A DNA stretch of 64,000 bases from Clostridiales bacterium (GTDB taxonomy: Bacteria; Bacillota; Clostridia; Christensenellales; Pumilibacteraceae), in the NCBI GenBank assembly GCA_022508365.1, contig JAFLVH010000001.1, positions 1 to 64,000 on the forward strand, given 5' to 3'. Positions 41,690 through 61,378 of this stretch are shown here, one piece after another (positions within the stretch are counted from its first letter, which is position 1; the number at the start of each line of letters is the position of its first letter). Both the position numbers and the translations under genes were made by a program. The notes beneath the pieces were generated by a model that worked only from the letters and a program-made list of their open reading frames with translations, searched no databases and was not told the DNA's origin.

Positions 41690-41727
41690 TTTACCTCCGT
41701 CACAATACGGCACACCGCAATCGGCTG

Positions 41728-44463
41728 TTATTTGCTATCCTTGCTTCGGCGTTCACGAATAAGCTCATGCGGCCATTTAAACTTGAACTTGCGGACGGCT
41801 ATATCCAACAGGAACAGCACAAGCGCTATTATAATCATAGCCAAACGCGGATCTATTACTTTATGAATTCTATCGATAAAGTCAAGGAATATCTCGCTCG
41901 CGTTTTCTATCTCGTTGCCCTTTCCGTACGTGGTCAGCGACGCCATAAACTCAATAGCGTCCCTTTCGTCTACAAACACGTCGTACTCTGCCGAATATGA
42001 GAACGTCTTATACACATAGCACGAGGAAATTACGTCGCCCGAAGCGGACTTCTTTTCCACAAGAATTCTGTACACGCCGGCTTCCATAATCGTCAGCGTC
42101 ACGCGGCTGAAGTCCTCTTTTGCCCCGGCGGTAAAAGATTGTTCGACGGTTTCGTCCAGTCCGTCGTCGGTAGTACGGAACAGAGTTACGTCTATTTTTT
42201 CATCGCTACCTAGCGTGGTGAAAATACTCATTTGCGTTCGGTAGTTCTGCTCTTTCAGCTCCAATGTGATATCGGTTGGTCGTATATTTTTGGTCGGGAA
42301 CAATGATTTTATGACGTTGTTAATAAACCTTATTCCCACATCGCTATTCATAAACTCGTATGACCAAGAATCCTCGGTGCCCTTTAGATCGGACATAAAG
42401 CTGCCGACGTTGCCGGCGCCGTACTGCCACGTCGCATAGATGGGAACGGCATACGCAGGCACGTCGCTTCCCTCCGGATAGAAGCCGCCGATCAACACTT
42501 GAGTCGCATCAGACTTAAGCCTTGTGCCGTAGAATCCGCCCAGCTCGGGGAATCTTTCGTTGATGCCGGCAACGGCGGGCGTATGCGTCCTTATTGTGGG
42601 AGAAAACGCTGTGGGCACATACTGCTGAATGGTGTCCATGGTTAAGTCGTCGCGAAGAACATTGCGAAGCGCGTCCAAATCGGTAACGGAGTAGAATACG
42701 CCGCCGCCGATATCCTCTGCCAAGTTGGTCATATTCCTGGCAGTTGTAGTACCCTCGTTTATTCCTATGCCTACGACGGACATGGTTATATTGGCGCCGA
42801 AATTGTTGGCAACAGCCTTTTCAGACTCTTGGAGGTCGAAAGGTTGACCGTCCGTGATAAGTATAATATGTCGTCTTTCGACATTGGGCAAAACCTTCAA
42901 ATTTTCTCCGGCTGCAATTATGGCTTGGGAGTAAACAGTTCCGCCTCCCAGCGTAATCTTGTCTATGGCTTCTCTTATCACAGACACCTGAGTGGCTTGG
43001 GTGATGTCAATAACGCTCTCGTAGTCTGTTTCCAACGAGATAACGCCGCAGTAATCGCGCTCGCTCAACACGTCCAAGCAAGCTAACGCGCCTTCTTTGG
43101 CTGCCTCAAGCCTGGTCTTGCCAGAAGTATCGTCGCGCGCACTCATACTGCCCGACCTATCGATTATAATAACCAAACCGAGCGGCGGTTTATAGTCTAT
43201 TGCCTGAACGGGCAGCATTCTTTGATAAAGCGTGTTTATCATGTCCTCGCGGTTATAGGCGTTGGCGGTTTCGTTGCCGTCCACATCCGTTTTATTTCCG
43301 CCGATTGTAAACAATCCGCCGCCGGCGCTGTAAACATAGTCATTAAGTATTTCGTCAAAGCCCTCGGGCATGTCGGCGTTGGCTATGTTCATCATTATCA
43401 CCTCGTCATAAGCGCACAGCTCTGCAAGGCTGGATGGCACCTGCGACGCGTCGAGCATATTGACAACCTTGACGGTATAACCGGAATCCTCCAATATCTC
43501 GCAAAGATTGTCGGACTCGCCCGCGTTTCTTTCAAACAGCAAAATCTTGTCAAATGTTTCCAGATAGATATATGATGTGTAGCAGTTGTTTTCCGTTAAA
43601 TTATCGCCCTGACTTGTTATCTCAAACGTGAGCACATGCATACCTTCGCGAGGGAATGCGTATTGCAGCGACACGCTCTTGTTGCCGGTTTCAAAGCCGG
43701 TGTCTTGCGCAGCCGCAAACTCGCCGTTGTCATACATAGTTACTTTGGCAGCACCGGAAAAGCAGCTGCGCAAATTGACGGTTACGTTAAAAGGATCGTT
43801 TACCACAAGCGTGTAATCCGGCAAATCAACGCTTATTATCTCCACCTCGTCTCTGACTGATTCGTGGAAATATTTTGCATCGACATGCACACCGTCTGCA
43901 GCGACGCTTCTTACCGCGGCTATTGCGTTTCCGTCCGTTTCTATTCCGTCGCTTATCACAACTATTTTTGACGTTTCGGGATATTTAAGCAGCGATCTGG
44001 CATAAAGAAGAGCGGCCTCGATATCGGTAGCTGAGGTATCGGGTGATTTTGCGTTTAAGTATTGATTGTACACCTTGTCGCCGTCATACGAAAGCGGTGC
44101 GGCGTAAACCTGGTCATAACCGAATGTGACAATACCTATCTTGCAATTGCCGTCGTTAAAGTCTATAACAGACTTGACAAAGCTGTCCCTTTTTGTATCG
44201 GTTTCTCTTGCGCTGTGGGAAACGTCAACCAACAGTATAACTTCGTTTTCTTCGTTTTTAACGTCGTATTCAAACGTAAGCCCGGACAGAACCAGCACCG
44301 CCAGCACGCAGATAATGCAGTGCAAAACAAGCGAAACAATGCGGTTTCTTGTGCGGCGATACTTTTTGGCAGTGCGCAGATGGGGAAACAGCGCAAGGAA
44401 CAAAAGCGGAATAAGCAGTAATAAGAGCCAAGGATATTCAAAGTTAATCGTAAAATTAGACAT
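41728..44463 (-). CDS. Membrane vWA-domain protein (BatA/YegL-like)
   Basis: N-terminal TMs; LVIIIDRSGSMSARD MIDAS; C-terminal TM. Confidence 0.82.
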   Translation of the reverse strand: MSNFTINFEYPWLLLLLIPLLFLALFPHLRTAKKYRRTRNRIVSLVLHCIICVLAVLVLSGLTFEYDVKNEENEVILLVDVSHSARETDTKRDSFVKSVIDFNDGNCKIGIVTFGYDQVYAAPLSYDGDKVYNQYLNAKSPDTSATDIEAALLYARSLLKYPETSKIVVISDGIETDGNAIAAVRSVAADGVHVDAKYFHESVRDEVEIISVDLPDYTLVVNDPFNVTVNLRSCFSGAAKVTMYDNGEFAAAQDTGFETGNKSVSLQYAFPREGMHVLTFEITSQGDNLTENNCYTSYIYLETFDKILLFERNAGESDNLCEILEDSGYTVKVVNMLDASQVPSSLAELCAYDEVIMMNIANADMPEGFDEILNDYVYSAGGGLFTIGGNKTDVDGNETANAYNREDMINTLYQRMLPVQAIDYKPPLGLVIIIDRSGSMSARDDTSGKTRLEAAKEGALACLDVLSERDYCGVISLETDYESVIDITQATQVSVIREAIDKITLGGGTVYSQAIIAAGENLKVLPNVERRHIILITDGQPFDLQESEKAVANNFGANITMSVVGIGINEGTTTARNMTNLAEDIGGGVFYSVTDLDALRNVLRDDLTMDTIQQYVPTAFSPTIRTHTPAVAGINERFPELGGFYGTRLKSDATQVLIGGFYPEGSDVPAYAVPIYATWQYGAGNVGSFMSDLKGTEDSWSYEFMNSDVGIRFINNVIKSLFPTKNIRPTDITLELKEQNYRTQMSIFTTLGSDEKIDVTLFRTTDDGLDETVEQSFTAGAKEDFSRVTLTIMEAGVYRILVEKKSASGDVISSCYVYKTFSYSAEYDVFVDERDAIEFMASLTTYGKGNEIENASEIFLDFIDRIHKVIDPRLAMIIIALVLFLLDIAVRKFKFKWPHELIRERRSKDSK

Positions 44464-44475
44464 CGTACTACCTCA

Positions 44476-46449
44476 CTATACCCTTAACTCACGAGAATGC
44501 AACCACCATTCCGCAGCCAGCAGCAGAATCATGACCGCCGCGAAATAAACAATCAAGTCCAAGTTTGAAACTTCCTTAATATTCTTTTCCACACGCGACA
44601 CCAAAAGATCGGCCTCTTTTGTTATATAGCTTTCGCTTTTGGGGATTTGAACAAAGAAGTTGTCCGAAATAATCAAGCCGGAGATAGTTTCCTGCGTGAC
44701 GGTGTATGTGCCGCTGCGCGAGATTTTGACAATCTCCGATTCGCCTGCGAGAAGATTGTACTTCAAATCCAAACCGCCGCCCGTAAGCGCAAGCTGCAAT
44801 CCCCTTGTGCGAAGCCTTATTTCCTCATTCACTTCAAAGACGTTGTTAGAAGATAATATAGTCGAGCTGTTTTGGCCGGTAACGGTAATCGGCAGATAGT
44901 AGTCGAAAATATTTCTGAACATGGTTGACAAGTGAACGTTTGCGGGCAACGACGAAAAGTTAAGACTAAACGACATTATAACAACCTTGGAATCGGGCTC
45001 GTTTTTTGCGAGCATAACCGGATCGCTGCCGCCGTACAAAATGGGCTGGAACGATTCATCGTAGTCCAACACGCGGGTGTATTTGCTTACGTAAATTTCT
45101 TCCAGGTTCAAAAACTTGGTTATAGGATGCTCGTCGCCCGGCGCCAAATAAAAACTGCCTGTCACCGGTCTGGAAAAATCCATTCTGACGTCAAGCCCGC
45201 GCGGCACTCTGTCGGGATTTATCAGTATGACAATACCGTCGGTCGGCATCTCCTGCGGCATTGTATGCTCAAAGATATACAGATCGTATCCCTCTATTTC
45301 TGGAGTTTTACCGCGTATCTGCGTTATGGAGATATCCCGCCTGTTCCACAGCGTAAGCCTGACGGCAGCCAGTGCAAGCGGAATAAACGAGTTGGGTCTG
45401 GAACTGCAATACTGAACCTTAATCGAACGGGATTCGGCATTGCCGTTAAACAGATAAAAATAATTGTCGTAAGCAAACGAGTCGTCGCTGCCGTTCAAAG
45501 AGAAGTACGCGTCCTCAAAGGAGTATATGGGCTCAACCTCGTCGGCCGTTGTAAACGTCAATATCTTAGATTTATCCCCGGTAAAGGTTTCCCTTTGCGC
45601 AGTCAAAACTATCTCGCGGGTAACATAGTCGTCGCCTTCCTTTATTCTGTTGGCGCCGTGCACAATACCCGTGACCGTCAATTCCCTATCGGCGCCGTAG
45701 GAGGCAACCTCCACCTCAAAGACAAAGTATCCGTCAATCTGCTCCGCTTTGCAGTCCAAGATTGCGGCATTCCACTCTCCCACTTCGCTGACGTCCACAA
45801 CGGTGACGCCGCTTTTTTCTATATAGGTGGTGCCGGTAAACAGTACGATTTCCGCGCCGTCATTGTCATAAACAATATCCTCGGCAGCGGAAACGGCGCC
45901 GCTCACGTCACCCTTGCCAAAGGTGCAGTGTTCCAAAACGTTGCTGTCGTCTACGCTTAACAGATCGTCGAATATTTCGTTGATTTCATCCGCCTGCAAA
46001 GCGGTGGCGCGCTGAATCAGCACCTCGCTTTTGCTGCCTGCCAAGATGATGGAGATTACGCTATCCTCTTTGGTTAAGAATTCGTCGGACAGCTCTTTTG
46101 CCTGACCGACCGCGCGTTCAAAACGCGTTTTGTCTTTGTTTTTTGCCAGCATGCTCGCCGACGCGTCGATAATAATCACCTTTTCGGTCGACACGTTTAC
46201 TTCGGACGAAACGACCGGGCCGGTCATAATAAAGGCGCACAGCGCAATGATCAAAATCTGGCAAAGCAAAATAAGCAGGTTCCTGATCTTATTGATAGGA
46301 ACTTTTTTTCTTTTGTATTTCAAGCTGAGCTTCCAGACGAAGGTGCTTGAAACCAATTTTTGCTGGTAGTTGGGCTTTAGCAGGTAGATGAGAATAAGCA
46401 CAGCCAATCCCAACAAACCTAAAAATCCCAAGGGTGCAAGTAAGCTCAT
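44476..46449 (-). CDS. BatA-type N-terminal membrane domain plus vWA protein
   Basis: LAPLGFLGLLGLAVLILIYLLKPNYQQKLVSSTFVWKLS; EKVIIIDASASM MIDAS. Confidence 0.85.
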   Translation of the reverse strand: MSLLAPLGFLGLLGLAVLILIYLLKPNYQQKLVSSTFVWKLSLKYKRKKVPINKIRNLLILLCQILIIALCAFIMTGPVVSSEVNVSTEKVIIIDASASMLAKNKDKTRFERAVGQAKELSDEFLTKEDSVISIILAGSKSEVLIQRATALQADEINEIFDDLLSVDDSNVLEHCTFGKGDVSGAVSAAEDIVYDNDGAEIVLFTGTTYIEKSGVTVVDVSEVGEWNAAILDCKAEQIDGYFVFEVEVASYGADRELTVTGIVHGANRIKEGDDYVTREIVLTAQRETFTGDKSKILTFTTADEVEPIYSFEDAYFSLNGSDDSFAYDNYFYLFNGNAESRSIKVQYCSSRPNSFIPLALAAVRLTLWNRRDISITQIRGKTPEIEGYDLYIFEHTMPQEMPTDGIVILINPDRVPRGLDVRMDFSRPVTGSFYLAPGDEHPITKFLNLEEIYVSKYTRVLDYDESFQPILYGGSDPVMLAKNEPDSKVVIMSFSLNFSSLPANVHLSTMFRNIFDYYLPITVTGQNSSTILSSNNVFEVNEEIRLRTRGLQLALTGGGLDLKYNLLAGESEIVKISRSGTYTVTQETISGLIISDNFFVQIPKSESYITKEADLLVSRVEKNIKEVSNLDLIVYFAAVMILLLAAEWWLHSRELRV

Positions 46450-47345
46450 TCTATAATACCCACCTTAAGCAATTCACCGAACAGCACTCTTTCAATCGGC
46501 TTGTCGCACGCAACGGAGATAAACCCCGCCTCGCGCGACGCGCAAAACGACTTGATGTCGTCTATAAAATCCTTAAGCGCCTCTTCGTAAGCCAAACGCA
46601 TACTGCGCGTGATATTCATCTTCATATTTTTGAAATCGGCGGCGTCAATAGCCTCTGCGTCAATCATGTTGACGCGCCCCTCGTAAGTGGGATCGACCTC
46701 CTCCGGGGCAAGTACCTGAATCAACAATACCTGACGGTTTTTAAACCGCAAATAGTCAATCGCTTTTTTCCAATCGCTTTCGGTAAAGAAATCGGAGATT
46801 ATGACGGTAAGTCCGTCGTTAGACCCGATGCTTACGTCGCTTTTGATAGCCGAAAGCAGGTCAGACTCCCCGTCGAATTCCAAACCTTCCAAATCGCGTA
46901 CTGCTTTATAAAACGTGGTTTTCCCGACGATTGTGCCAAACGGGTTTTGCACACGGTTGCCTTGAACAAGCTTAAAGGAAAGCTTGTCCATATTGTGCAC
47001 TGTCAAAAAGCCCAATGCTGCGGCAACGCCGACAGCATAGGCGGACTTTTGCGGATTTGCCTTGCTCATGGAAGCAGAGCAATCCAAATAGACATGCGTG
47101 TGCATTTGTCTTTCGTCGGTAAATAACTTGATAAAGAATTTTTCGAACCGACTGTACAGGTTCCAGTCGATGCGTCTTATATCATCGCCGAGCATATATT
47201 CTCGGTAATCGGCAAATTCGACGGTTTGACCGTAAGTGCGAACAAGGTGTTTGCCGCCGAAAAATCCGGACAAATCGGTGCGCAAATTCAAAGCCAAAGT
47301 CTCTAACCGACTGAAAAAGTCGTCATTTAAGTAAGAGACCTTCAT
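46446..47345 (-). CDS. DUF58 domain protein
   Basis: GGKHLVRTYGQTVEFADYREYMLGDDIRRIDWNLYSRFEKFFIKLFTDERQMHTHVYLDCSASM. Confidence 0.9.
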   Translation of the reverse strand: MKVSYLNDDFFSRLETLALNLRTDLSGFFGGKHLVRTYGQTVEFADYREYMLGDDIRRIDWNLYSRFEKFFIKLFTDERQMHTHVYLDCSASMSKANPQKSAYAVGVAAALGFLTVHNMDKLSFKLVQGNRVQNPFGTIVGKTTFYKAVRDLEGLEFDGESDLLSAIKSDVSIGSNDGLTVIISDFFTESDWKKAIDYLRFKNRQVLLIQVLAPEEVDPTYEGRVNMIDAEAIDAADFKNMKMNITRSMRLAYEEALKDFIDDIKSFCASREAGFISVACDKPIERVLFGELLKVGIIE

Positions 47346-48469
47346 TATTTTTTAGCTTTTCTCCGCTTGGATTTTTTATCCGATTCTTCCGTGGTTTCGG
47401 TCTCCGGCTCGACAACGTCTTCGGCGCCGACGGCGGATAGATCGGCGGGCTCGCCGCCAAACTCGATCTTGCTTGTTGAAATACCGTGCTTTTTGCCGAG
47501 CTCCGCCAAAATCATCTCTATAATTTTATCGGGTGAAACGCGCTCCGCAATCGCTTCAAAGTTAAGCTTCATACGGTGGCGCAATACGGGATAAGCAAGC
47601 TCGTTGACGTCGCTGTAAGCTACGTTAAACCTGCCCTGAAGAAGCGCTTTGACCTTTGCCGCGGAAATAAGCGCCTGACCCGCACGCGGGCTGGCGCCCA
47701 AGCGCACGTACTTTTTGGCCGTCTCGGACGCGCACTCGCTGTCGGGGTGCGTGGCGGAGCACAGCGTCATTGCATAGCGCATTACGGGCTCCGCAACCGG
47801 TATGGCATTGGCGGTTACGCGCATGCGCAGCAGCTCCTCGCCCGTACAAGCGGCGTCTGCCACCTCGGCCATGGTTTTTTGCGTCATGTTGACGATGTCC
47901 ATCAGCTCGTCCAAGCTGGGGTTTTTGACTATAAGCTTAAACATAAAGCGGTCCATCTGCGCCTCGGGCAGCGGATAGGTACCGTCCTGCTCAATCGGGT
48001 TTTGCGTAGCAAGAACGAAGAACGGCTCGTTAAGCTTGCGGGAAACACCCATAACGGTTACGGTGTGCTCTTGCATTGCCTCTAGCAAAGCGGACTGCGT
48101 TTTGGGCGTAGCGCGGTTAATCTCGTCCGCCAAAATTATGTTACTGAAGACGGGTCCGGGCTGGAACTGAAAATCCGAATTGCCCTTGGCGTCCTTGACA
48201 ACGATGTTGGTACCGGTAACGTCCGCCGGCATCAAGTCCGGAGTGAACTGAATGCGCGAGAAAGGCAGATTGAACACCCTGCCGAGCGAGCGAACCAAAC
48301 GCGTTTTTCCTACGCCGGGAACACCCTCCAATAGAACGTTGCCGCCCGCAATCATGGCGATTATTGTTCCCTGGACTACCTCTTTTTGTCCGATAACGTC
48401 GCGTTCTACCTGCGCAAAGATCTTTTTGCACTGTTCACTGAACTTAGTGACATCTTTTTCCGTAACCAT
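47345..48469 (-). CDS. MoxR-family AAA+ ATPase
   Basis: GGNVLLEGVPGVGKTRLVRSLGRV, RIQFTPDLMPADVTGT, LLEAMQEHTVTVMG. ATG at 48469 behind GAGG. Confidence 0.93.
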   Translation of the reverse strand: MVTEKDVTKFSEQCKKIFAQVERDVIGQKEVVQGTIIAMIAGGNVLLEGVPGVGKTRLVRSLGRVFNLPFSRIQFTPDLMPADVTGTNIVVKDAKGNSDFQFQPGPVFSNIILADEINRATPKTQSALLEAMQEHTVTVMGVSRKLNEPFFVLATQNPIEQDGTYPLPEAQMDRFMFKLIVKNPSLDELMDIVNMTQKTMAEVADAACTGEELLRMRVTANAIPVAEPVMRYAMTLCSATHPDSECASETAKKYVRLGASPRAGQALISAAKVKALLQGRFNVAYSDVNELAYPVLRHRMKLNFEAIAERVSPDKIIEMILAELGKKHGISTSKIEFGGEPADLSAVGAEDVVEPETETTEESDKKSKRRKAKK

Positions 48470-48552
48470 TGTATAATACCTCAAAAAGTGAATTAACGTA
48501 AATTAATTAAGACAACATTATAGATAAGTATGCTCTAAATGCGCATGTGCGA

Positions 48553-49776
48553 TTACAGACCGCCGAAGTACGCCTCTATAATTCTGCGCAAATCCTCGGG
48601 CAATTCCTTACCCTCGGCAAGCAACTTCATAGCAAGCTCGTAGTACTCCCACAGGAAGTCCTCTATGGGCGTCTCGCCGTCCATAAAGGTGTTGTCCTGA
48701 ATGCTGTCGCCGCCGCCGGCGCCTTCGCCTTCGGATTCGATGCTATCGCCGTCGCCTTGTCCGTTGTTAGATCCTGACGGAGGAGCGGGGATGCCGCCGT
48801 TCTCGCCGTTGCCGTTGCCGTTTCCGGGCTCGCCGTTGGGATCGCCGGGATCGCCGGGCTCACCGTCACCGGGTTCTCCCTCGCCGTCACCTTCGCCGGG
48901 ATCGCTTACTCCCATAAAGACGGCAACAACCGTAAGATTGTCGATGACGTTAAATTCATATCTTTCGTCCTCGGGGACTTCATGCTTACCGAACATGATT
49001 TCCAACATGTAGTTCCTTTCCAGCACGCCGGAATTAAGCTCGGCAAGTACGTCCTCCATCGGGGTGTTTACATAAACGACCCAATCATAAAAGAACCACT
49101 CGTCGTCGGGAACGGCCTTAACGGACTCAGAGGACTCACCCGTTGCAACCACTTGCTCTACGTCGCCCTCTATATATCCGCCCATGTCCAAATTGCCGCC
49201 GAAGCCGTAGCACAAATATGACACAGTATTGTATTGCGTTTCTGCGGCAACTACATTATTCCATACTTCGTCCATTGAAGGAATAAGCCCGGCGCTGCCC
49301 AAAATGCTCAATGTAGTAACACCGACATAAGCTGCGGCAGCAACAGAAGCAAGTGTGATTACGCTTTTTGAAAAAGACATCTTCATGGGGACGACGGCTT
49401 TTCCGCCAGATCCGCCCAAAGCCGCCAGCGCAGCCTTAGCGTCCTCGCGCTGACGCTGAGCAATATACGAGTCGTCGCCCTCCAGCTCGGTCATGGTAAT
49501 GATACGCTCTTCCAAACCGAGATTATCAATTCTTTGCGCGACGGTTCTGTTTGTCGGATGGAACCGTTTAAAATAGAACACGGGAGTAAGCGCGCCGACA
49601 GCCGCTACGCCGATTAAAACGGAAATCCAAAAATATTTGAAACCGGTTAACCAAAAAACCAATGCAAGAACGCTTGCCAGGCCCATGCCGATTGCTACGC
49701 CGCAAAGAAGCGATTTGATAATTGCTTCTTTTACTAACCTTGCATGATATTTTTCAAATGCTTTTTTACTATCCAT
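48553..49776 (-). CDS. Membrane protein with Gly/Pro/Asp-rich low-complexity segment, first gene of the MoxR/vWA operon
   Basis: Two N-terminal TMs plus an internal TM; GDGEGEPGDGEPGDPGDPNGEPGNGNGNGENGG; RBS AAAGGAGG. Confidence 0.75.
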   Translation of the reverse strand: MDSKKAFEKYHARLVKEAIIKSLLCGVAIGMGLASVLALVFWLTGFKYFWISVLIGVAAVGALTPVFYFKRFHPTNRTVAQRIDNLGLEERIITMTELEGDDSYIAQRQREDAKAALAALGGSGGKAVVPMKMSFSKSVITLASVAAAAYVGVTTLSILGSAGLIPSMDEVWNNVVAAETQYNTVSYLCYGFGGNLDMGGYIEGDVEQVVATGESSESVKAVPDDEWFFYDWVVYVNTPMEDVLAELNSGVLERNYMLEIMFGKHEVPEDERYEFNVIDNLTVVAVFMGVSDPGEGDGEGEPGDGEPGDPGDPNGEPGNGNGNGENGGIPAPPSGSNNGQGDGDSIESEGEGAGGGDSIQDNTFMDGETPIEDFLWEYYELAMKLLAEGKELPEDLRRIIEAYFGGL

Positions 49777-49832: not shown

Positions 49833-49868
49833 AAAAAGGCACCGCAAAACTAATGCGACGCCTTTGTC
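49833..49868 (-). promoter_or_regulatory. Leader terminator/attenuator-like hairpin (copy A)
   Basis: Minus strand GACAAAGGCGTCGCATTAGTTTTGCGGTGCCTTTTT. Confidence 0.65.
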
Positions 49869-49881
49869 GAATACTTGGTCA

Positions 49882-49911
49882 ATTATACCATATAATAAAC
49901 AACTATGTCAA
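49882..49911 (-). promoter_or_regulatory. Sigma-70-type promoter
   Basis: Minus strand TTGACA, 18-nt spacer, TATAAT, 13 nt upstream of the leader hairpin. Confidence 0.7.
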
Positions 49912-49982: not shown

Positions 49983-50018
49983 AAATTTCCCGACCTTTGC
50001 TTTTGAAGGCCGGGAAAT
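49983..50018 (-). terminator. Terminator of the giant LRR gene
   Basis: Minus strand ATTTCCCGGCCTTCAAAAGCAAAGGTCGGGAAATTT. Confidence 0.75.
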
Positions 50019-50052
50019 CATCGGAGCTGATAAAAATTTTACGGTTAAAGCT

Positions 50053-53000
50053 TTAGGGACGGACGTAACCCCAGACTACTTTTGCGCCGCAGACGACGTC
50101 GGGCTCGATCACGTAATCCATGTCATCCTCGCCTTCTTCAACGTCTTCATTGGGCACTTCGACGGTCTTGGAATTCCAGTTCCAGTACTGCGACCAGCCC
50201 TCGGGAGCGGAGGCATGCGTCTCTACGTAGATGGTCTGTGCGGAGGTCCAACCCTCAAACACATACTCGCCCATCTCTTCCACAGCCTCGGGTATGATAA
50301 TCTGAGTGAGCGCGGTGCAGCCGGCAAACGCAAAGTCGCCTATCCCTGTGACCGAAGCCGGAATGTTCAGCGTCCTCAAGTTGGTGCAGCCGTAGAACGC
50401 GTACTCCGAAATGTATGTCACCGTGTCGGGAAGCGTCAGCTCGGTAAGCGCGGTGCAACCGTAGAAAGAGTACGGAGAAATTCCGCCCAAGCCTTGCGTA
50501 GGCAGCGTAACCGAAGTAAGCGCGGTGCAGTTTTCAAATATGTGCCAGCCAAAGTTGGAGATGCTTTCGCCGTATACAACGGTTTTCAGGTCCTTGCAGT
50601 CCGCAAATACATAACTGTACATTCTGACGCCGCTCGGTATAGTTACGCTGGTCAAGCCGGTGCCTTGGAAGGAATTAGAATCGATAAAGTCCATATTCTC
50701 AGGCAAGGTTATCGACTTAAGGCTTATGCAATCCTGGAACGCACTGACGTACAGACCCTGCAAAGTATAAGGCAACTCCACGTCCGCAAGCTTTTCACAG
50801 CCGTAGAAGCCTCTAAGATAGGGCCAAAGCGTATTAGGTTCCACAACAAGCTTGGTGAGATTCTTGTTAAAGGCGAATGCGCCGGCGCCAATACCCGCTA
50901 TATTGCCGGGCAGAGTGAGCTCCTCGAATCCGCAATTGTAGAACGAAGTATCGCCGAGACGTACATCCACCTCCGTGGGGAACTCCACTTCTTTTAGGCT
51001 TGTGCAGTTGCCGAACACGAAGTCCGCGCGCGAAAGATCGCCTGAGAAGCCGGCGCCGAACCACATAGCATTGCCGAGTTTGACCGACTTAAGCGCCGTG
51101 CAATTGTAGAACATATACTCGGGCATTGAGGAGTTGATTGTGTAATACCATTTATTATCGGATGTATTTAAATAATATCTGCGGACGTGTATATTAGAGA
51201 GATCTAAGGAAGTCAGCGATGTACAATCGGCAAACACGCCTCTTGCCTCGCCTTCTGTGCCTGTTCCGATTGCAAAGCCGAGCGGATCCGCACTCTCTTC
51301 AAATTCTATGCTGCCCAGAGACGAACAACCGGCAAATACTGCGTTTCTTATAACGGATATCCCTGCCGGAATGTAAAGCGATTGAAGGCTTACGCAATCC
51401 ATAAAGGCATATGCATAAACATACTTTAGAGTGCCCGAAGTAGGGAACTGAACGCTTTGGAGATCCTTACAATCTCTGAATGCCGATTCGTATATATACA
51501 CAAGGCTTGACGGAAGCTTTATGTTAACCAATCCGCTTCCCTGGAATGCGTTAGCCAAAATGTTGTCGACACCGTTAGGCAAGTCGATTGATTTAAGCGA
51601 CGAGCAGCCGTAGAACGCGTATGCATTAACCCTTGTGATATTGGAAGGGAATTTTACGCTTTCAAGCGCCGAACAGCCGTAGAACAGATATCCGCTTATA
51701 TATGCGTAACCGGATGTTGCAGATGTTGCGCTGTTATAGAACGCGCTGCGTGTGGAAAAGTCAACGGACTTAAGCGACGTGCAGTTGAAGAAAGCGCCGT
51801 AGTTGCCTATCGTTGTAGCGCTCGATCCGTTTGCTATGCCTATTTTCTTATTGGAGGCTTCTACCACAACGGTTTCAAGATCGCTGCATTCGGCAAATGC
51901 CGCATTGTTGATGCTCTCTATATTTGCACCGAGAGTGAAGCTTTTAAGTCCGGTATTGAAGAACGATCCCGTTCCTATAAGTATCGTACCGGCAGGCAAC
52001 TTGACGGACGTAAGAGCGATACAATCGGCAAATATATAGTTGTTTAATTTATTTAAATATGTGCTTGTTGTATATGACGTACTGTTGATAACAGACGTTC
52101 TTGTCGAAAGGTCTATAGATTTAAGTGATGCGCAATCGCCAAACACGCCGCGGGAAGTTGCAGAAAGAGAGGGATTGTAGCTTGAAGACCCTGTGCCTGC
52201 GCCAAAGCCAATGCCTGCGTTTGCACCGTTATCCGATTCAAAGGTAACACTCTCAAGCAATAAGCACCCTGCAAATGCCGCGGAATTGATTACCGTAACG
52301 CTGCCCGGTATTGTCACCCTTTCCAGCAACTTGCAATCCATAAAGGCATAGGTGCCAATGGTGGTAAGCGTACTCGGCAACGTGACCTTGGTAACACCTG
52401 AATCCCTAAAGGCGGAAGAGCAAATCTCTACCAAACTATCCGACATAGGCGCCTCATCAAGATACAAGCAGTTGGCAAAAGCATAGGTTCGTATAGTTAA
52501 AAGCGTATCGGGCAATTTGCATGAAACGAGGTTTGTGCAGCCGTAAAAAGTATAGTCGCCGAGGCAGTTGATGTAAGTTGCCGATGTTGTTGATGTGGAC
52601 GCATTAAGGGGACGCTTGGATAAGTCAATGGTGCTAAGCAAAGTGCAGTCTCCAAACGCGCCGCGGTTTGTATTAGTTGATCCACTGCCGTATACAATAG
52701 TCAACACTTCGGAGCTTTCCGCAAATGTAACGTTGCCCAGGCTGGAGCAACCGGCAAACGCCGCCTTTTGAATTACTTTAATGTTGACAGGGATATTGAT
52801 GCTTGTAAGCGCGATGCAGTCCATGAACGCAGCGATGCCTATAGTCTCTAACGTGTTGGGGAATACGACTCCGTTAAGCTTGGAGCAGCCCGAAAACGCG
52901 CTCTGCCCTATCAGCTCAAGACCGCTGTTAAATGTAACGGACTCCAAACCGGTACAATTAATAAACACGTTGGTCGCAGTTGTCGCACTCGAACCGATCG

Positions 53001-56000
53001 ACGTGATATTTCCGGGGATATTGACGGACAAAAGATTTTCGCAATAAGCGAACGCATAGTTACTAATCGTTTCCAGACCGGAACCAAACGTCACACCTGT
53101 TATTCCCGAGTTTGCAAATGCATATGTGCTAAGCACAGTTAAGCTATCCGGCAACTTAACGTCGCCAAGCGCCGTGCAGTATGAAAACGCGTATGTGCCG
53201 ATGGATTCAAGCTCGTCGTTAAGCTCTATATCGTCAAGCGCCGTGCATTTATAGAAAGCGTAAGATCCCAGATCTTTAAACCCATCATTTAACGACACGC
53301 TTCTCAGAGCCTCGCATTCGCTAAAGGCGTAGGAGCCTACAGTTTCAAGCTCGTCGTTAAACGTTATCTCTTGAAGCGTTTCATTTTGATAGAAGGCATA
53401 ATCTCCTATTGCGGTTATTCCGGCGGGCACGGTGTAGGCGGTATCGCTTCCGACATAGCGGATAAGCGTTTTGCCGTCGCGGCTGAGTAGAGCCTTGCCG
53501 TCTCCGCTCAATGTGTAAGCTCCGCTCGCCCCGTTGATGGTAAACGATTTGATTTTGCAGCCCAAGAATGCCTGCGGATCAATGGACGATATCGTCGAGG
53601 AAAGCGTTACGGTATTAAGACCGCTGTTTGCAAACGCGTTGCTGCCTATTGTGGTAAGTCCCGACGGGAAAACTATGGAATTAAGCGACGTGCAGTTTTG
53701 GAAGGCAAAGTTGCCTATCGTTGCCAATGACGTGCCCGTTCCCGCAAAGGTGACGGTATCCAGCAGCTTGCAATTGGTAAAGGTATACGTGCCGGTTGTG
53801 GTGGCGCCGTCCGTGGGAAGGGTGACCGACCGCAACGCCGAACCGTAAAAAGCGTATGAGCCGAGATTAGTCAGTGAGCTCGGAATGGTCACGCTCGTTA
53901 AGCCGGAATTATAAAACACCGAGTTAGTGGTGGATGAGCAAGATAAGGTTGTAAATCCGGTCAAGTCAATGCTCGTCAAGCTCGTGCAACCGTAGAACGT
54001 TCCGTAGCTGATGGTAACAAGCTTGCGGTCTCCCTCGCCGCTGTTGTCAAATGTAACATTGCTTAAGGAAGTGGCGCCGTAGAATGAGTAGTTGCTTATT
54101 GACGTAAACGATTTTGTGGGTATGGTGACGCTGGTGAGAGCAGTGTCGTATCTGAATAGATACGTTCCAAGCGAAGTGACAGTGTTCGGTATGTCAAACG
54201 AGCTTATGGCAGTGCTTTCAAAAGCGTAGTTGCCAAGCGTTGTAAGACTGCTGTTGCCGCTGCCGGTAAACGCAAAGCCGTGTGCCGAGGCGCCTGCGCA
54301 TTTTTCATCTGTGCAGGTTTCCGGGTTGTGGCTGCCGAGGTTAGAGCATTGATAAAAAGCGTATGTCCCGATTGACGTCACGGTCTTTGCAATCTCCACC
54401 TTTTTAAGCCCCGTAAGCTGATAGCACAGATAACCCTTTATAGACCCGCTGCCGGTGATAGTGAGCGTGGTAAGGTTCGGGCAAAGGTAGAACATATGGT
54501 AAGGCAGTTCACCGTTGGACGCAATACTCGCGGTTTTCAGGTTAGGGCAATTGTAGAATGTGCCGTATTTGCCGTATGTACCGGGAGTTGTCGTAGTGTG
54601 CGTGGTGATGGCCAGCTTTGTCGTGCTGTTCAGCTTTATCTCCGCCGACTCAAGGTTTTGGCAGTTGGCAAATGCAGCCGCGCCGAGCGAGGTCAAAGAC
54701 GAAGGCAGAACAACCCTGGTTATTCCGCTACCGTCAAAGGCGTTTGCCGCGATAGTGGTAAGCTGATTACCGAACGTCACTTCGGTAAACAAGCTGCCGG
54801 TAAATGCGTTTGTCGCAATTGTCTTGACTGAGTCGGGAAGCGCAAGAGTACCGCCGCCGGCATTGGTAAACACATTGGCGTTTATCTGCTGAATTGCAGC
54901 ATTTTTGTTTATTGTCAAGTGGCTGAGCGATGAGCAGTTGGTAAAGGCATACTGACCGAGACCGACCGTCCTAAGCGGAAGGTTTACGGTTTCTAGCCTC
55001 TCGCAGTTTTGGAACACGCCTTTTGCGTCACCCGAGCTGCCTACATTAAGGCTGGTATTCTTGGTAGTGGCATTATCTTCTTCAAAGTTTACCGTGGTAA
55101 GGCTCAAGCTACCGTAAAATGCGCCTTCGCCTATCTTTGTCACCGTGTTGGGAATGGTGATACTCTGAAGATACTTACTGCCCTCAAACGCGCCGGCGTT
55201 GATTTCGGTTACGCCGCTGGAAATCGTGTAGCTAACGTCCCTCTTATTTGCGGGATAAAAGAGCAATACCGATTTGTCCGCAGTGTAAATTACGCTGTCC
55301 TCGATGACTATCTTGCTGTTGCCGCTGATTCTGATGTCGGTAATGGTATCGCAGCCTGCAAATATATCGGGATCGAGCGTCGCAAGATTGGAGGGCAACG
55401 TTACGGTTGTCACTCTGCTACCGCTAAACAGAGAGGCGCCGAGTGTGGTAGCGGAATCCGGAATTACAATTTCCGTAAACACGTTTTCGGAGAAGGCATA
55501 GCTTCCGATGGATTGAAGCTGCGATCCTTCGGCAAACTCAAATTTGGCTGTGCGAACATTGCCGGCAAATGCGCCGACGCCTATTGTCTGCGTAGCGGCG
55601 GGGATCATTACCTCGCGCATGCCGGTGCAGTTGGAAAAAGCGTAATTGCCTATTCTCGTGAGCTTGCTGTCTTCCGGAATGGTCACGGTGAGCAGCATCG
55701 AGCAGTTGTAAAAAGCGTAGTCGCCTACTTCCGTAAGTCTTGCGGGGAGAGTAATAGCCGTTATGCCGATAAACTGATGGAACGCGCCTGTTGTACTTGT
55801 TCCGTTGTTAATGACCAAGGCGACTTCGGCTGTTCCTTCCGGAGTTTCCTGGAACGAGAAGGACGTTATGTTCCAAGCCTTGAAGAAAGCCCTTGCATTA
55901 ATGCTGGTTACGTCGTACGGTATGACAACGGCCTTTGTCCTGGAAATCGGGCAATATACCGCTTCGTTTATGCCTTTTTCCGCGTCCTTGTAGTAGAGAA

Positions 56001-59000
56001 TTCCGTCGTCGGAGTAGTATTTACCGCCCGCCTCGACAGTAATGACGCTGAACACAGAACAGCTCAACAGAGCGTCGGTACCGAACACGTCGTAATAGTC
56101 GGAAATGTCGTTGCCGGCATCATCAAGTGTAACAATATGCGTTAGACCTTTAGGAAGCTCCAATGTCGTAAGTTTCGAGCAGCCGCTGAACACGCTCGGA
56201 CCTATTGTCACCGGATTTTCGTTGCCGGCGGCAAATGTGACCTTCTGCAACGAGGAGCAAGACTGAAAAGCGTTTTTCTCTATCGCATAGATAGAAATCG
56301 AACCGTTAGCGCTAGTCGTATTTTTAACGGAATTGGGGATGGTGATGCTTGTCAAAGCGCGGCAGTTATAGAACGTATATGCCGGGATATATTTTATACG
56401 CGCAGGCAGATTAATGGAATTAAGCGATGTGCAGCCCGAAAAAATACCGGTAGTCGATGAAGGGTTGCCTCCGTTGACAGCCGCAATCATTTCCAATATA
56501 TTATCGAGATTGCCGTCTTCAAACGTTACCTTTTGAAGCGCCGAGCAGCCGTAAAACGCCTTTGCGCCTATGGTGTCTACTGTGTTGAGAATTTCAATTT
56601 CCATAAGAGAGCTACAGCTTGCAAACATACCGCTGGCAATTGCGGTCAAGCGCTCGGGTAAAGTTACCGTTTTAAGCGCCGAGCAGCTATAAAATGTTTC
56701 TGCATAGTGTGTGGAAGCGCTCTCAAGCAAAACCAGTGAATTTGCGTATTGTACGCCGCCATTGGGCGCTGAACCCTCTTCGTCCCCGTCAACGGATGTG
56801 GGGGCGTTTTCAAATGTAACGGTGACAAGCTTGGACAAATAAAACGCTCTGTAGCCTATTTCATCGACGGTTGCGGGAATTGTAATCGATGCAAATGCGT
56901 TGTTATAAAACGCCAACTCGCCGATGGATGTGACGTAATTGGGCATCGTAAACTTTTTGAGCTGGTTGCAGTTATAGAATGCTCTGTAGGAAATGACTTT
57001 AATACGGTCTGTCATCCGCACTTCTTCAAGCCCGGTGCAGCCCTCAAACACGCTGTTGCCGAGCGTTAAGTTCGCGCCCGATCCTGCCTCAAATATTACC
57101 GTCTTAAGCCCGGTGCAACCCATAAACGCCTCGTCACCGATGGACGTGACGTTGATGCCTATTGTTATGCTCTCTATAGTGGTGTTGCTCTTAAACAGTC
57201 TGGCGCCCAAAGATTGAACTTGATCGGGCAACTTAAAGTTTCCTGTTTTTCCAAGCGGATAAAAGAGCATTTCTTCAAAGCCCTTGGAAAAAAGAACGCC
57301 TTCCCATGTCTCGTAATATTCGTTGTCCTTATCGACGTTTATCGTCGTAAGCTTGATGCAGCCGGCAAAGACGCCCTCGCCAATGTTTGTCACATGCTTG
57401 GGTATGTCTATCTCGGTCAATACCGTGCAGCCGTTAAATGCCGAATTCTCTAACGATAATTCTCCGTCGCTTTCGGCAAAGTTTACGTTAGCAAGCTTGG
57501 TGCAGCCGTTAAAAGCAAACTCGTCGATTTTAGTTACGTTCGAGGGAATGTTTATCGTATCAATCTTGGTGCATTTGCTAAACGCATATTGCCCGATTTC
57601 GGTAACGGTATTAGGCAACGTAATCGCTTCCACAGCCGTGCAGCTCTCAAACGCATGCCCGCCTATAGTGGTGAGTTTGCTGCCGGTAAAGTCCAATGTG
57701 GCAAGCTTGGTGCAGCCCTCAAACGCATATTCGCCTATCGTCAAGCTGCCGAGCGCAATGTCAAACTTGATAGATGCAAGCTGCGTGCACTTGTTGAATG
57801 CATAGGCTTTTATCTCGTTTATTGTTTGCGAAAATCTGACAGAGGTTATTTTTGTGTTGCTTGCAAATGCCCTTTCGCCGATTTTATTGATGCTTCTCGG
57901 CAAAGTCAGCTCGCCGGAAACTTTGTTGGTCGGGCAATACAAAAGCGTTTCGCCGCGTGCGTCGCACAAAAAGCCTTCGACGCCTTTGTAATCAGTGCTT
58001 GCGGGCTCTATGTCGATTTCTTCAAACACATTACAGGCGTTGAAAATCGCGGGGTTAAAATCGGAAATCCTCGCAGGCAAAACAACTCTTTTCAGCTTTG
58101 TACAGTTAGAAATCGCCGCCTCAAAAATGACAAGGGGCTGAACGCCGCTTTCTTCCGTTACGTTGCCCGCAAATTCAAAAACTATTTCGCTCGCAGAGCT
58201 GTAGTAAAACGCAGTGCGTTCGATCGTGACAACAGTCGCAGGGATAGTAATTCTGTCTGCCTGCGCGTACTGCAAGCATTTTAAAGGTAAAGCCGTCACC
58301 CCGGTAGGAATGGCGTAGTCACCCTTTTTTGCGCGAGGGTAAAGCAAAAGCTCTTTTGTTCTTACCTCGCCGAAATCGTTTAATGTCGCTTTATAAAGAA
58401 CTCCCTCATGCGTGCTGTACTCGGGCGCCCTTACACCTTCTACTTCGTAGATCTCAAACTCTTCTATATTGTTGCTGCCGTTAAATGCGTTGTTATCTAT
58501 ATACTTGATCGAGTTTGGGATTCTGACCTTTACCAACATGCTGCTGTTGGTAAACGACGTGCTGCCTATTTCCGTTACGTTGATTGGACGGGCATCGGTA
58601 GGAGCCTGGTACGTCACAGGTATCAAAAGATTTGCGGGAGCATGCGAGGGAAAGTACGTCGTGTTCTTGGCAATTCTGTATGTGCCGTTAGAAAGCTTTT
58701 CAAAGGCGAATATGGACGCCCAGCCGGCATAAACGGTCATGCCGCGCGTTATATTCCAGCCCGTCAAGCTGTTGCCGGTCTCGTCGGTGTATTGAATTTC
58801 CAGTCCGTACCTGTCGCTGAACCAGCCGATAAAAACCAGCGAGGCATCGGACGGAGTTGCAATCGGCCAAGTGTAGTGCTCACGGTATGTCGCACTTCCG
58901 ACCTCTCCGCCGACAACGCCGCCGTTATAGTCAAACGTTATCTCATAGGTTTCGGGAGTCCAGTAGGCGTAAAGCACCGTGTCGCCAACACCCATAAAGT

Positions 59001-61272
59001 ATTCGTCGTCGTACAACGCGCCCAAGCCCTCGGGGCCTGCAGGCGTGGTGTACCAGCCGGCAAAATTATATCCGTTCTTTTCAATGTCGTCTCTGCCGGG
59101 CAAATACAGTCTGTCGCCTACGGCGTAGTACTGCGCGGATGCGCTGCCGCCCTGCGCAACCTCTCCGCCGCGAAGATCGAATTCGATTGCGTGCGCCACA
59201 ACGGTAATCGTAGCAAACGCGGACGCATTGCCTTCCTCGTCGACAAAGTTGACGCTTATCGTGTTGACTCCGTTTTGCGTAAGCCTGATGCTCGCCTTGT
59301 TGATGCCGTCGGTGACTTGAACAGCCGCGCCGTTGTTGACTTTTACATTGTAATAGTCAACGCCGATTACATGGCGCCAGGCAACAACGCCGGCATTGTA
59401 GGTAAGAGCGCTGTACATAGCATAGTAACGCGCGTCTACGGGGTCGCTCCACAGCGACGATTTTACCGCACCGCTGCCTACGGACATTACTTTAATCTGG
59501 TAATCCGCCGCTTGAGTCCAAGTGGTGTTGTCGGCGTCGCCCAGGTCAAACGACGTGGTGGAGGAGGTGTAGGTTGCATTGCCTATGCTTATGCTGTAGG
59601 ACGATGCGTTGTCATCACCCACCCATGTGAGCGTATTGCCGACAATGCGTATATCGGAGGGCGCCGCAAGCGTAGTCTTTTTAACGGTAAGCTTTGCGGG
59701 CGCGGGAGAAATGTAGCCCTTGGTATAAGGCGCTACTTCTACCGTGATATCGCCGGAACAAGCTTCGTAATCCTTTAAGGAGAAGGCGGTCTTATTGCCG
59801 ACGTTTATGTCTACGTTGTGATTGTGTGCGCTGTTGTCGCAGGAAAGTGATACGATGTAGCCTGCCGCGTTCGCGACGCCGTTCCAGGTCAGTTCCTCTT
59901 TTGCCGCGTCGTAGCGCAAGCCGGAAACAGCCGCAAGACTGCGCTTGTAGACGTAGGTTTTGGATACGGAATCCGCCTTGCCTGCAGCAGTTGCGGTGAC
60001 GGTAAATTTGATACCTTCGTTTGTCATCTTGCAGTTGACAAAGTTAAAGCTTGTTAAAAGCCCGTTGTCAAATGCAGTGTGCGCATGGTTAACATCGCCG
60101 CACTCCACGGACAGAATGTATTTTTCCGCGCCCTCAACCGCGTTGAATATCAGCGTGGACGGATCGACCACGGTAAACAAGGAAACCCTTGCAAGCGCCT
60201 TGTTGTTGTATTTTCTTATTGCCGTTTCGGAATTGTTGGCTTCGTTACCGCTTGCCGCGATTGCCGTGACGGAAATTGTGTATGCGCCGGCATCCATTTC
60301 GTCAAACGCAATAGCCATCGTTGTGGAACCGCTGTCCTCGTTTTTAACGGTTTCGCCGTTAGGTCCGGTTACGGTAACATGGAAAGTGCGCGCATTGGCA
60401 TTGCTGCCCCAGCTGATTCCGGCGGACGTCACGTCTACTATGGGCATCGCCAGCTTCGTAGACGCGGCATTGCTCTGCCACAACGCGTACACGGTGGTGC
60501 TTTCCGCAAACACGGTGTTTTCCGTCACTCTGTAGGACAGCTCGCCGTCAAACATCACCCACCAGCCTCTGAATGTGTGACCGGTGCGCGTGGGCTCTGC
60601 CAAATCGTAAAGCCTGCCTGCGATGGTGGTCTGACTTTCCATAGTGGGCGCGGTTTCGTAATTCAAATCGAAGTCAACGGTAAATTCGGACTTGCCGAAT
60701 ACGGGCTCCACCCAACGCGCATACAGCGTGGTGTTGCCTGTGACGGTATCCGATTCAAATATAAACGGCTTGGTATATTCTTGGTCCTTATACCATCCGA
60801 TAAACTCCATGTCGCCGTTTTCGGGCGTGGCAGGTCTTGCTATAGTCTTGCCGTTGATTACCTTAACGGGCGCAATAGCAGTACCGGAGCCTACGTTAAA
60901 CGTGACGGTATATGTAATCCTCTTGGTAAAACGAAGCGCCGCATTGTTCTCGCCCATGTTGACGGTGAGAATGTCATCGTTGAGCACGGCAGTATATTGA
61001 ACGTCGCTGAACTTGAACGTAAGATTGCTGCCGGACACGGTGTAGGTACCGGTCTTGGCAGAGTCGGCAATCAAAATCGTCACCGAGGTTACGTTGTTCA
61101 ACGTGATCAAATACTCGCCGTCGTCGGCGTCGTAATAATAAACGCCGGTCTCCGGCCCTTCTGTAGGCTTCTTGGTTGTGGTCTTCTTGCTGCTGCCGCA
61201 CGCTACAAACAAGGCGCCGACAAAAGCCGCCACAAAGACAAGAAGTACGTAGAGTAATTTAGGTCTTTTCAT
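50053..61272 (-). CDS. Giant (3739 aa) lipoprotein: InlB-B-like and FN3-like N-terminus, then a very long BspA-like LRR_5 array
   Basis: Lipobox LFVACGSS; GDMEFIGWYKDQEYTKPFIFESDTVTGNTTLYARW repeats; dozens of F.GCT.L..I.IP..V..IG..AF units; uninterrupted 11.2-kb ORF. Confidence 0.92.
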   Translation of the reverse strand: MKRPKLLYVLLVFVAAFVGALFVACGSSKKTTTKKPTEGPETGVYYYDADDGEYLITLNNVTSVTILIADSAKTGTYTVSGSNLTFKFSDVQYTAVLNDDILTVNMGENNAALRFTKRITYTVTFNVGSGTAIAPVKVINGKTIARPATPENGDMEFIGWYKDQEYTKPFIFESDTVTGNTTLYARWVEPVFGKSEFTVDFDLNYETAPTMESQTTIAGRLYDLAEPTRTGHTFRGWWVMFDGELSYRVTENTVFAESTTVYALWQSNAASTKLAMPIVDVTSAGISWGSNANARTFHVTVTGPNGETVKNEDSGSTTMAIAFDEMDAGAYTISVTAIAASGNEANNSETAIRKYNNKALARVSLFTVVDPSTLIFNAVEGAEKYILSVECGDVNHAHTAFDNGLLTSFNFVNCKMTNEGIKFTVTATAAGKADSVSKTYVYKRSLAAVSGLRYDAAKEELTWNGVANAAGYIVSLSCDNSAHNHNVDINVGNKTAFSLKDYEACSGDITVEVAPYTKGYISPAPAKLTVKKTTLAAPSDIRIVGNTLTWVGDDNASSYSISIGNATYTSSTTSFDLGDADNTTWTQAADYQIKVMSVGSGAVKSSLWSDPVDARYYAMYSALTYNAGVVAWRHVIGVDYYNVKVNNGAAVQVTDGINKASIRLTQNGVNTISVNFVDEEGNASAFATITVVAHAIEFDLRGGEVAQGGSASAQYYAVGDRLYLPGRDDIEKNGYNFAGWYTTPAGPEGLGALYDDEYFMGVGDTVLYAYWTPETYEITFDYNGGVVGGEVGSATYREHYTWPIATPSDASLVFIGWFSDRYGLEIQYTDETGNSLTGWNITRGMTVYAGWASIFAFEKLSNGTYRIAKNTTYFPSHAPANLLIPVTYQAPTDARPINVTEIGSTSFTNSSMLVKVRIPNSIKYIDNNAFNGSNNIEEFEIYEVEGVRAPEYSTHEGVLYKATLNDFGEVRTKELLLYPRAKKGDYAIPTGVTALPLKCLQYAQADRITIPATVVTIERTAFYYSSASEIVFEFAGNVTEESGVQPLVIFEAAISNCTKLKRVVLPARISDFNPAIFNACNVFEEIDIEPASTDYKGVEGFLCDARGETLLYCPTNKVSGELTLPRSINKIGERAFASNTKITSVRFSQTINEIKAYAFNKCTQLASIKFDIALGSLTIGEYAFEGCTKLATLDFTGSKLTTIGGHAFESCTAVEAITLPNTVTEIGQYAFSKCTKIDTINIPSNVTKIDEFAFNGCTKLANVNFAESDGELSLENSAFNGCTVLTEIDIPKHVTNIGEGVFAGCIKLTTINVDKDNEYYETWEGVLFSKGFEEMLFYPLGKTGNFKLPDQVQSLGARLFKSNTTIESITIGINVTSIGDEAFMGCTGLKTVIFEAGSGANLTLGNSVFEGCTGLEEVRMTDRIKVISYRAFYNCNQLKKFTMPNYVTSIGELAFYNNAFASITIPATVDEIGYRAFYLSKLVTVTFENAPTSVDGDEEGSAPNGGVQYANSLVLLESASTHYAETFYSCSALKTVTLPERLTAIASGMFASCSSLMEIEILNTVDTIGAKAFYGCSALQKVTFEDGNLDNILEMIAAVNGGNPSSTTGIFSGCTSLNSINLPARIKYIPAYTFYNCRALTSITIPNSVKNTTSANGSISIYAIEKNAFQSCSSLQKVTFAAGNENPVTIGPSVFSGCSKLTTLELPKGLTHIVTLDDAGNDISDYYDVFGTDALLSCSVFSVITVEAGGKYYSDDGILYYKDAEKGINEAVYCPISRTKAVVIPYDVTSINARAFFKAWNITSFSFQETPEGTAEVALVINNGTSTTGAFHQFIGITAITLPARLTEVGDYAFYNCSMLLTVTIPEDSKLTRIGNYAFSNCTGMREVMIPAATQTIGVGAFAGNVRTAKFEFAEGSQLQSIGSYAFSENVFTEIVIPDSATTLGASLFSGSRVTTVTLPSNLATLDPDIFAGCDTITDIRISGNSKIVIEDSVIYTADKSVLLFYPANKRDVSYTISSGVTEINAGAFEGSKYLQSITIPNTVTKIGEGAFYGSLSLTTVNFEEDNATTKNTSLNVGSSGDAKGVFQNCERLETVNLPLRTVGLGQYAFTNCSSLSHLTINKNAAIQQINANVFTNAGGGTLALPDSVKTIATNAFTGSLFTEVTFGNQLTTIAANAFDGSGITRVVLPSSLTSLGAAAFANCQNLESAEIKLNSTTKLAITTHTTTTPGTYGKYGTFYNCPNLKTASIASNGELPYHMFYLCPNLTTLTITGSGSIKGYLCYQLTGLKKVEIAKTVTSIGTYAFYQCSNLGSHNPETCTDEKCAGASAHGFAFTGSGNSSLTTLGNYAFESTAISSFDIPNTVTSLGTYLFRYDTALTSVTIPTKSFTSISNYSFYGATSLSNVTFDNSGEGDRKLVTISYGTFYGCTSLTSIDLTGFTTLSCSSTTNSVFYNSGLTSVTIPSSLTNLGSYAFYGSALRSVTLPTDGATTTGTYTFTNCKLLDTVTFAGTGTSLATIGNFAFQNCTSLNSIVFPSGLTTIGSNAFANSGLNTVTLSSTISSIDPQAFLGCKIKSFTINGASGAYTLSGDGKALLSRDGKTLIRYVGSDTAYTVPAGITAIGDYAFYQNETLQEITFNDELETVGSYAFSECEALRSVSLNDGFKDLGSYAFYKCTALDDIELNDELESIGTYAFSYCTALGDVKLPDSLTVLSTYAFANSGITGVTFGSGLETISNYAFAYCENLLSVNIPGNITSIGSSATTATNVFINCTGLESVTFNSGLELIGQSAFSGCSKLNGVVFPNTLETIGIAAFMDCIALTSINIPVNIKVIQKAAFAGCSSLGNVTFAESSEVLTIVYGSGSTNTNRGAFGDCTLLSTIDLSKRPLNASTSTTSATYINCLGDYTFYGCTNLVSCKLPDTLLTIRTYAFANCLYLDEAPMSDSLVEICSSAFRDSGVTKVTLPSTLTTIGTYAFMDCKLLERVTIPGSVTVINSAAFAGCLLLESVTFESDNGANAGIGFGAGTGSSSYNPSLSATSRGVFGDCASLKSIDLSTRTSVINSTSYTTSTYLNKLNNYIFADCIALTSVKLPAGTILIGTGSFFNTGLKSFTLGANIESINNAAFAECSDLETVVVEASNKKIGIANGSSATTIGNYGAFFNCTSLKSVDFSTRSAFYNSATSATSGYAYISGYLFYGCSALESVKFPSNITRVNAYAFYGCSSLKSIDLPNGVDNILANAFQGSGLVNIKLPSSLVYIYESAFRDCKDLQSVQFPTSGTLKYVYAYAFMDCVSLQSLYIPAGISVIRNAVFAGCSSLGSIEFEESADPLGFAIGTGTEGEARGVFADCTSLTSLDLSNIHVRRYYLNTSDNKWYYTINSSMPEYMFYNCTALKSVKLGNAMWFGAGFSGDLSRADFVFGNCTSLKEVEFPTEVDVRLGDTSFYNCGFEELTLPGNIAGIGAGAFAFNKNLTKLVVEPNTLWPYLRGFYGCEKLADVELPYTLQGLYVSAFQDCISLKSITLPENMDFIDSNSFQGTGLTSVTIPSGVRMYSYVFADCKDLKTVVYGESISNFGWHIFENCTALTSVTLPTQGLGGISPYSFYGCTALTELTLPDTVTYISEYAFYGCTNLRTLNIPASVTGIGDFAFAGCTALTQIIIPEAVEEMGEYVFEGWTSAQTIYVETHASAPEGWSQYWNWNSKTVEVPNEDVEEGEDDMDYVIEPDVVCGAKVVWGYVRP

Positions 61273-61302
61273 ATAGGCCTCCTAAAAATTTGCTAAGAAA
61301 AC

Positions 61303-61338
61303 AAAAAAGGCAACGCAAAAACCTGCGACGCCTTTGTC
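61303..61338 (-). promoter_or_regulatory. Leader terminator/attenuator-like hairpin (copy B)
   Basis: Minus strand GACAAAGGCGTCGCAGGTTTTTGCGTTGCCTTTTTT. Confidence 0.65.
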
Positions 61339-61348
61339 ACTTCCTAGC

Positions 61349-61378
61349 AGTATAACACACAGAATTCTTTTGTGTCAA
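61349..61378 (-). promoter_or_regulatory. Sigma-70-type promoter
   Basis: Minus strand TTGACA, 18-nt spacer, TATACT, 10 nt upstream of the leader hairpin. Confidence 0.7.

Follow-up and report, generated by a model that had tools for sequence, protein, structure and literature searches.

Two similar leaders in front of surface-protein genes

The window analysed here comprises 64,000 nucleotides of contig JAFLVH010000001.1 (assembly GCA_022508365.1) from a Clostridiales bacterium of the family Pumilibacteraceae. On its minus strand, a giant LRR gene and a gene run comprising a MoxR/vWA operon are each preceded by a short leader, referred to as copy B and copy A, respectively (Table 1). For copy B, the original prediction of a promoter followed by a hairpin, AGGAGG and ATG was borne out base for base by direct reading: TTGACA and TATACT are separated by 18 nt, GACAAAGGCGTCGCAGGTTTTTGCGTTGCCTTTTTT (61338-61303) follows after 10 nt, and downstream of this hairpin lie the AGGAGG and the ATG at 61272. 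Copy A shows the same layout with an 18 nt spacer, TATAAT and, after 13 nt, GACAAAGGCGTCGCATTAGTTTTGCGGTGCCTTTTT (49868-49833), likewise by direct reading. The predicted promoters agree with the consensus at 11/12 (copy B) and 12/12 (copy A) positions.

As claimed beforehand, both copies are identical over the first 15 nt and match at 16/17 positions in their 3' halves. Allowing up to two mismatches, the 15-mer has three matches in the window compared to 0.2 expected, a number reached in 0/100 shuffles; its recurrence is not due to chance. The full hairpin pattern occurs at just two sites in the 1.67-Mb genome, namely copies A and B. Since a terminator-like hairpin closes the giant LRR gene, copies B and A probably give rise to two separate transcripts.

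Elsewhere in the window, a tRNA gene (34839-34911, minus strand) is the sole Rfam match at the gathering threshold, and a fragment of an oligopeptide-transporter-type protein (63139-63999, minus strand) matches histone H1-like HC2 over a C-terminal stretch.

Table 1. Leader elements and associated genes in the window
Feature	Position	Strand	Basis or remark
-35 box TTGACA, copy B	61373..61378	minus	11/12 consensus together with -10
-10 box TATACT, copy B	61349..61354	minus	consensus score
Hexaloop hairpin GAC[AAAGGC]GTC, copy B, proposed ANTAR-binding antiterminator	61327..61338	minus	signature compared with PMC3369931, PMC8934654
Intrinsic terminator AAAGGC...GCCTTTTTT, copy B; hexaloop sequence forms its 5' arm	61303..61335	minus	folding, stem covariation
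Ribosome-binding site AGGAGG, copy B gene	61278..61283	minus	direct reading
Copy B gene (proposed as regulated): 3739-aa BspA-type LRR protein, lipoprotein-like signal peptide	50053..61272	minus	
Terminator-like hairpin closing the giant LRR gene	49984..50019	minus	
-35 box TTGACA, copy A	49906..49911	minus	consensus score
-10 box TATAAT, copy A	49882..49887	minus	consensus score
Hexaloop hairpin GAC[AAAGGC]GTC, copy A	49857..49868	minus	sequence signature
Intrinsic terminator AAAGGC...GCCTTTTT, copy A	49833..49865	minus	folding
Copy A operon, first gene: 407-aa membrane protein without Pfam family (P0001)	48553..49776	minus	
Copy A gene run, remainder	38975..48484	minus	
MoxR AAA ATPase, copy A run	47345-48484	minus	
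DUF58, copy A run	46446-47345	minus	
BatA/vWA, copy A run	44476-46449	minus	
vWA, copy A run	41728-44463	minus	
LRR_5 protein, copy A run	38975-41713	minus	

Conservation of the leader in related genomes

A covariance model was built from seven copies and run over 74 draft genomes of the family. By context, its matches were of two kinds: ordinary terminators located after genes, and leaders right after a promoter. Overall, 36 leaders from the own and related genomes were retained. The same leaders precede the same two genes in three relatives within the genus (G004, G014, G015), and additional copies are present in G012 and other relatives. The covariance search suggested along with the original prediction thus finds the leader conserved in related strains. 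Going beyond that prediction, the own genome contains at least two further leaders, one (G000:C19:21514) before another LRR protein and one (G000:C37:250) before a secreted protein containing Ig-like and thioredoxin-like domains. The candidate G000:C3:9703 lacks a matching terminator arm; it lies outside the set of 36 and inside the count of 37 A1/G4 places given below. In two relatives, a leader is located about 3.4 kb from nusG, before the gene of a small protein (180-189 aa) that is lipoprotein-like (L128, G012:C4:69970; L040, G016:C19:20687).

Five matches of the covariance model (L042, L046, L055, L057, L061) turned out to be ordinary terminators after genes, and the matches in G299, G382 and nearly all of those in the f6 family were discarded as lying in coding sequence. 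A scan of viral contigs gave two matches, both without terminator. Using relatives of P0001 as a guide to orthologous leaders, we found a leader at just 4/30 loci. In a strict order-wide search of 396 genomes, which looser relatives would escape, the leader was almost confined to this family. Comparison with Rfam 15 revealed no family above its gathering cut-off for the leaders; the narK RNA (RF03032) and RefA9 (RF02844) models overlap weakly with copy A (E ~0.7-0.8), and their scores of 15.8 of 43.2 and 20 of 49 are far under gathering and provide no evidence of membership.

A terminator and a competing hexaloop hairpin

The terminator 5' arm starts with GACAAAGGCGUC in both copies. In the leader alignment (A2), in which 2/39 sequences are antisense matches and which is biased towards the structure to which it was fitted, 94% of cells pair in the terminator stem and two-sided changes occur in 5/10 pairs. 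Altogether, 27 cells changed on both sides compared to a shuffled mean of 7.0 (0/500 shuffles), and versions of the stem that were slid along gave at most 4. The terminator stem is therefore real, and the reading of the element as a terminator-like leader has gained support from both covariation and conservation.

The 12-mer GACAAAGGCGUC has a second fold, GAC[AAAGGC]GUC, with a six-base loop whose first base is A and whose fourth is G (A1/G4). AC/GU pairs close this loop, and in copy B the stem extends to GUGAC/GUCGC. This small hairpin, which the original prediction had not described, competes with the terminator for the shared 5' half, and the two folds are mutually exclusive. The GAC before the terminator stem and the GU in its internal loop are constant across the leaders though unneeded by the terminator, and pair mutually as GAC[AANGRY]GUC; part of this constancy arises because the searches were seeded with that sequence. 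Being invariant in the set, in part owing to the seeding of the searches, the GAC/GTC stem receives no support from covariation, and the fourth pair of the hairpin stem shows no excess over composition expectation. Folding yielded -15.4 and -14.0 kcal/mol for the terminators compared to -5.5 and -8.6 kcal/mol with the leader forced into the hexaloop, suggesting that termination is the default and that protein help would be needed to hold the small hairpin.

The decay of an mRNA can be slowed by a 5'-proximal stem, and the hairpin might chiefly stabilise the 5' end with termination being incidental. We consider this extremely improbable, as the leaders keep the U run and show constant hexaloop bases that the outer stem does not need.

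A proposed single-hexaloop variant of ANTAR target leaders

The targets of the ANTAR antiterminators EutV, NasR and AmiR contain an A1/G4 hexaloop overlapping a terminator; the published 13-nt site of EutV-type systems reads AGCAANGRRGCUY with the loop AANGRR, and AC/GU closing pairs, present in EutV P1, matter in EutV (PMC3369931). The loops of the leaders taken up here read AANGRY, fit the published AANGRR site and are closed by AC/GU pairs. The leader had been judged too short for a classical aptamer, which is in line with our analysis; its retained 5' half instead matches the hairpin that ANTAR antiterminators recognise. A hairpin as defined by Ramesh 2012 (at least 3 bp, hexanucleotide loop, A1, G4) is present in each of the 36 leaders, both window copies among them, and the overlap of P2 with the intrinsic terminator's 5' arm, also part of that definition, was found as well. 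For the second, upstream hairpin (P1) with a short linker that it includes, the leaders offered no clear counterpart. The distance from the -10 box to the hairpin is 7-14 nt in 31/36 leaders (7 to 26 nt overall), leaving no transcribed room for a second hexaloop in these 31. Additional A1/G4 hexaloops near the leaders were not clearly above chance, either upstream (6 vs 3.4 by chance) or downstream (15 vs 10.8).

As the dual-hairpin definition does not apply, the leaders are described here as a single-hexaloop, promoter-proximal variant that may act like an ANTAR target. They share with the dual-hexaloop RNAs of EutV, NasR and AmiR the A1/G4 hexaloop, the AANGR sequence, the AC/GU pairs, the overlap with the terminator 5' arm and the link to nitrogen genes. 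However, they carry one hexaloop located, in most cases, 7-14 nt after the -10 box, and their putative targets are mainly secreted lipoproteins and LRR surface proteins. For EutV, antitermination in the cell requires two hexaloops (PMC3369931, PMC8934654), whereas in vitro each hexaloop is bound alone and the minimal motif has been redefined as one hexaloop, sufficient for the ANTAR dimer (PMC8934654).

In five leaders (L010, L038, L045, L174, L176), the terminator's own apical loop comprises six bases, A1 and G4 among them, and might serve as a second site; the terminator apical loops of window copies A and B offer no such possible site.

Distribution of the leader with ANTAR genes

The 74 family genomes were also searched with a loop-free pattern consisting of a promoter, GAC, six free bases, GTC and a U run. 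Among the matches listed, 37 of 101 distinct places showed an A1/G4 loop, some few of which are probably chance matches without terminator. All 37 were located in ANTAR-positive genomes (26/49), compared to 0/25 ANTAR-negative genomes, where the 19 listed matches showed unrelated loops. Among these same matches, the leader is thus present in ANTAR-encoding genomes, as in the definition of Ramesh 2012, and a Fisher test of the association at genome level gives p ~1e-6, ignoring relatedness of the genomes. In 23/49 ANTAR-positive genomes, the strict search had no match among those listed. Contrasts within genera agree, few as they are: G062 vs G061 by covariance model, and g7 genomes with vs without ANTAR.

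The genes behind the leaders differ between groups. In g1, they encode mainly secreted lipoproteins. In g8, the leader precedes gdhA, the gene of glutamate dehydrogenase; the gene behind it in g7 and g12 encodes a class-II glutamine amidotransferase similar to a glutamate-synthase subunit (by sequence similarity only for the g12 gene). Published ANTAR regulons are largely nitrogen-related and include glutamate synthase genes. In G150, which belongs to another family, the ANTAR stop codon is followed after 61 nt by a leader of the same form, with pyrG downstream of it.

This last case touches on a protein-free attenuator or constitutive partial terminator, in which start-site choice, nucleotide supply (reiterative pyrG-type) or RNA polymerase factors would set readthrough. 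Known nucleotide-sensing attenuators have their terminator at the very start of the transcript, a position that the leader terminators resemble. The predicted start regions, however, have no G run as required for pyrG-type reiteration, and such a model explains neither the constant GAC/GU outside the terminator pairing nor, among the matches listed, the absence of the leader from ANTAR-free genomes. We therefore regard it as quite unlikely.

The proximity to the promoter and the constant sequence would also be compatible with another RNA- or DNA-binding antiterminator (e.g. of the Q or AlpA type) reading GACAANGRYGTC. Such a reading is very unlikely in our assessment, given a -10 spacing ranging from 7 to 26 nt and a site that fits the ANTAR rules in detail and tracks the ANTAR distribution among the matches listed.

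A NusG paralog of the LoaP/RfaH type was a first lead, because a second NusG-like protein is widespread in the genus (17/20 genomes) and also encoded in the own genome (G000:C1:110358-110690, minus strand, outside the window). By binding the hairpin, it would let the polymerase traverse the 11-kb gene and the long operon processively. The control of long operons by LoaP relies on an RNA hairpin with a UNCG loop, and the dfn/mln hairpin shares with our leaders the position of a leader RNA hairpin before very long transcription units. In contrast, its UNCG tetraloop, set apart from the terminator, is absent from the leaders, and the paralog is missing from leader-bearing g7, g8 and g12 genomes as well as from G006, which belongs to the same genus and has the leader. 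This lead was rejected on distribution and appears highly improbable. The second NusG-like protein is rare in the family beyond the genus.

A probably glutamine-linked ANTAR protein and the proposed switch

The own genome encodes exactly one ANTAR gene (G000:C6; L194:6241-6858). It overlaps the end of glnA and is followed by purF, carA and carB, these three having been named by eye from sequence. The protein matches the solved structures of Rv1626 (1s8n), AmiR and EutV, and its N-terminal part gave no Pfam receiver match. At the position of the receiver aspartate, most comparable ANTAR sequences have Y or N; with the usual aspartate absent, phosphorylation by a kinase is unlikely. In clostridial glnA-nitR systems, the ANTAR gene is found behind glutamine synthetase. 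Our system resembles these in the ANTAR gene directly after glnA and in the glutamate-synthase-type gene under the leader in relatives, but differs in its single-hexaloop target leaders and in having surface proteins as the visible targets in the own genome.

Taken together, we consider it likely that both leaders are single ANTAR-type hexaloop attenuation switches co-activating the giant LRR gene and the MoxR/vWA operon, with ANTAR binding, the direction of control and the signal being the inferred part. RNA would start just a few bases ahead of the element, and the nascent RNA would by default fold into the terminator, releasing a short RNA of roughly 40-50 nt. Active ANTAR protein from the gene after glnA would capture GAC[AANGRY]GUC as the hairpin exits RNA polymerase; the hexaloop held in this way would sequester the terminator 5' arm and allow the polymerase to read through, so that both the giant gene and the operon would be activated together. 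The idea of a shared trans-acting factor for both leaders, put forward with no name for it, has thereby gained comparative support from the ANTAR-type hairpin and the single ANTAR gene, from which we infer binding and co-regulation. The position of the ANTAR gene behind glnA, together with the nitrogen genes that carry the leader in relatives, makes glutamine or nitrogen status the probable signal; that this signal passes via glutamine synthetase is a guess.

We also lean, with somewhat less confidence, towards a natural family of single-hexaloop ANTAR antiterminators at the transcript 5' end, which lack P1 and tie giant LRR proteins and the MoxR/vWA operon to a glutamine-linked regulator without receiver aspartate. 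If this is true, the puzzle posed by EutV, where P1 is needed in the cell while one loop binds in vitro, becomes testable: either the 5'-terminal position stands in for the recruitment hairpin, or the difference lies in the protein. Searches requiring two hairpins would then overlook targets. The proposed control further suggests that nitrogen status may govern very costly surface proteins in these bacteria.

In the leader of the host's own glnA operon, we saw a terminator-like hairpin and no GAC hexaloop. This hairpin has a U run and lies, together with a promoter-like site, at L194:9700-9830 (minus strand, G000:C6), before the first gene of a run formed by phosphoglucomutase, glnA and the ANTAR gene.
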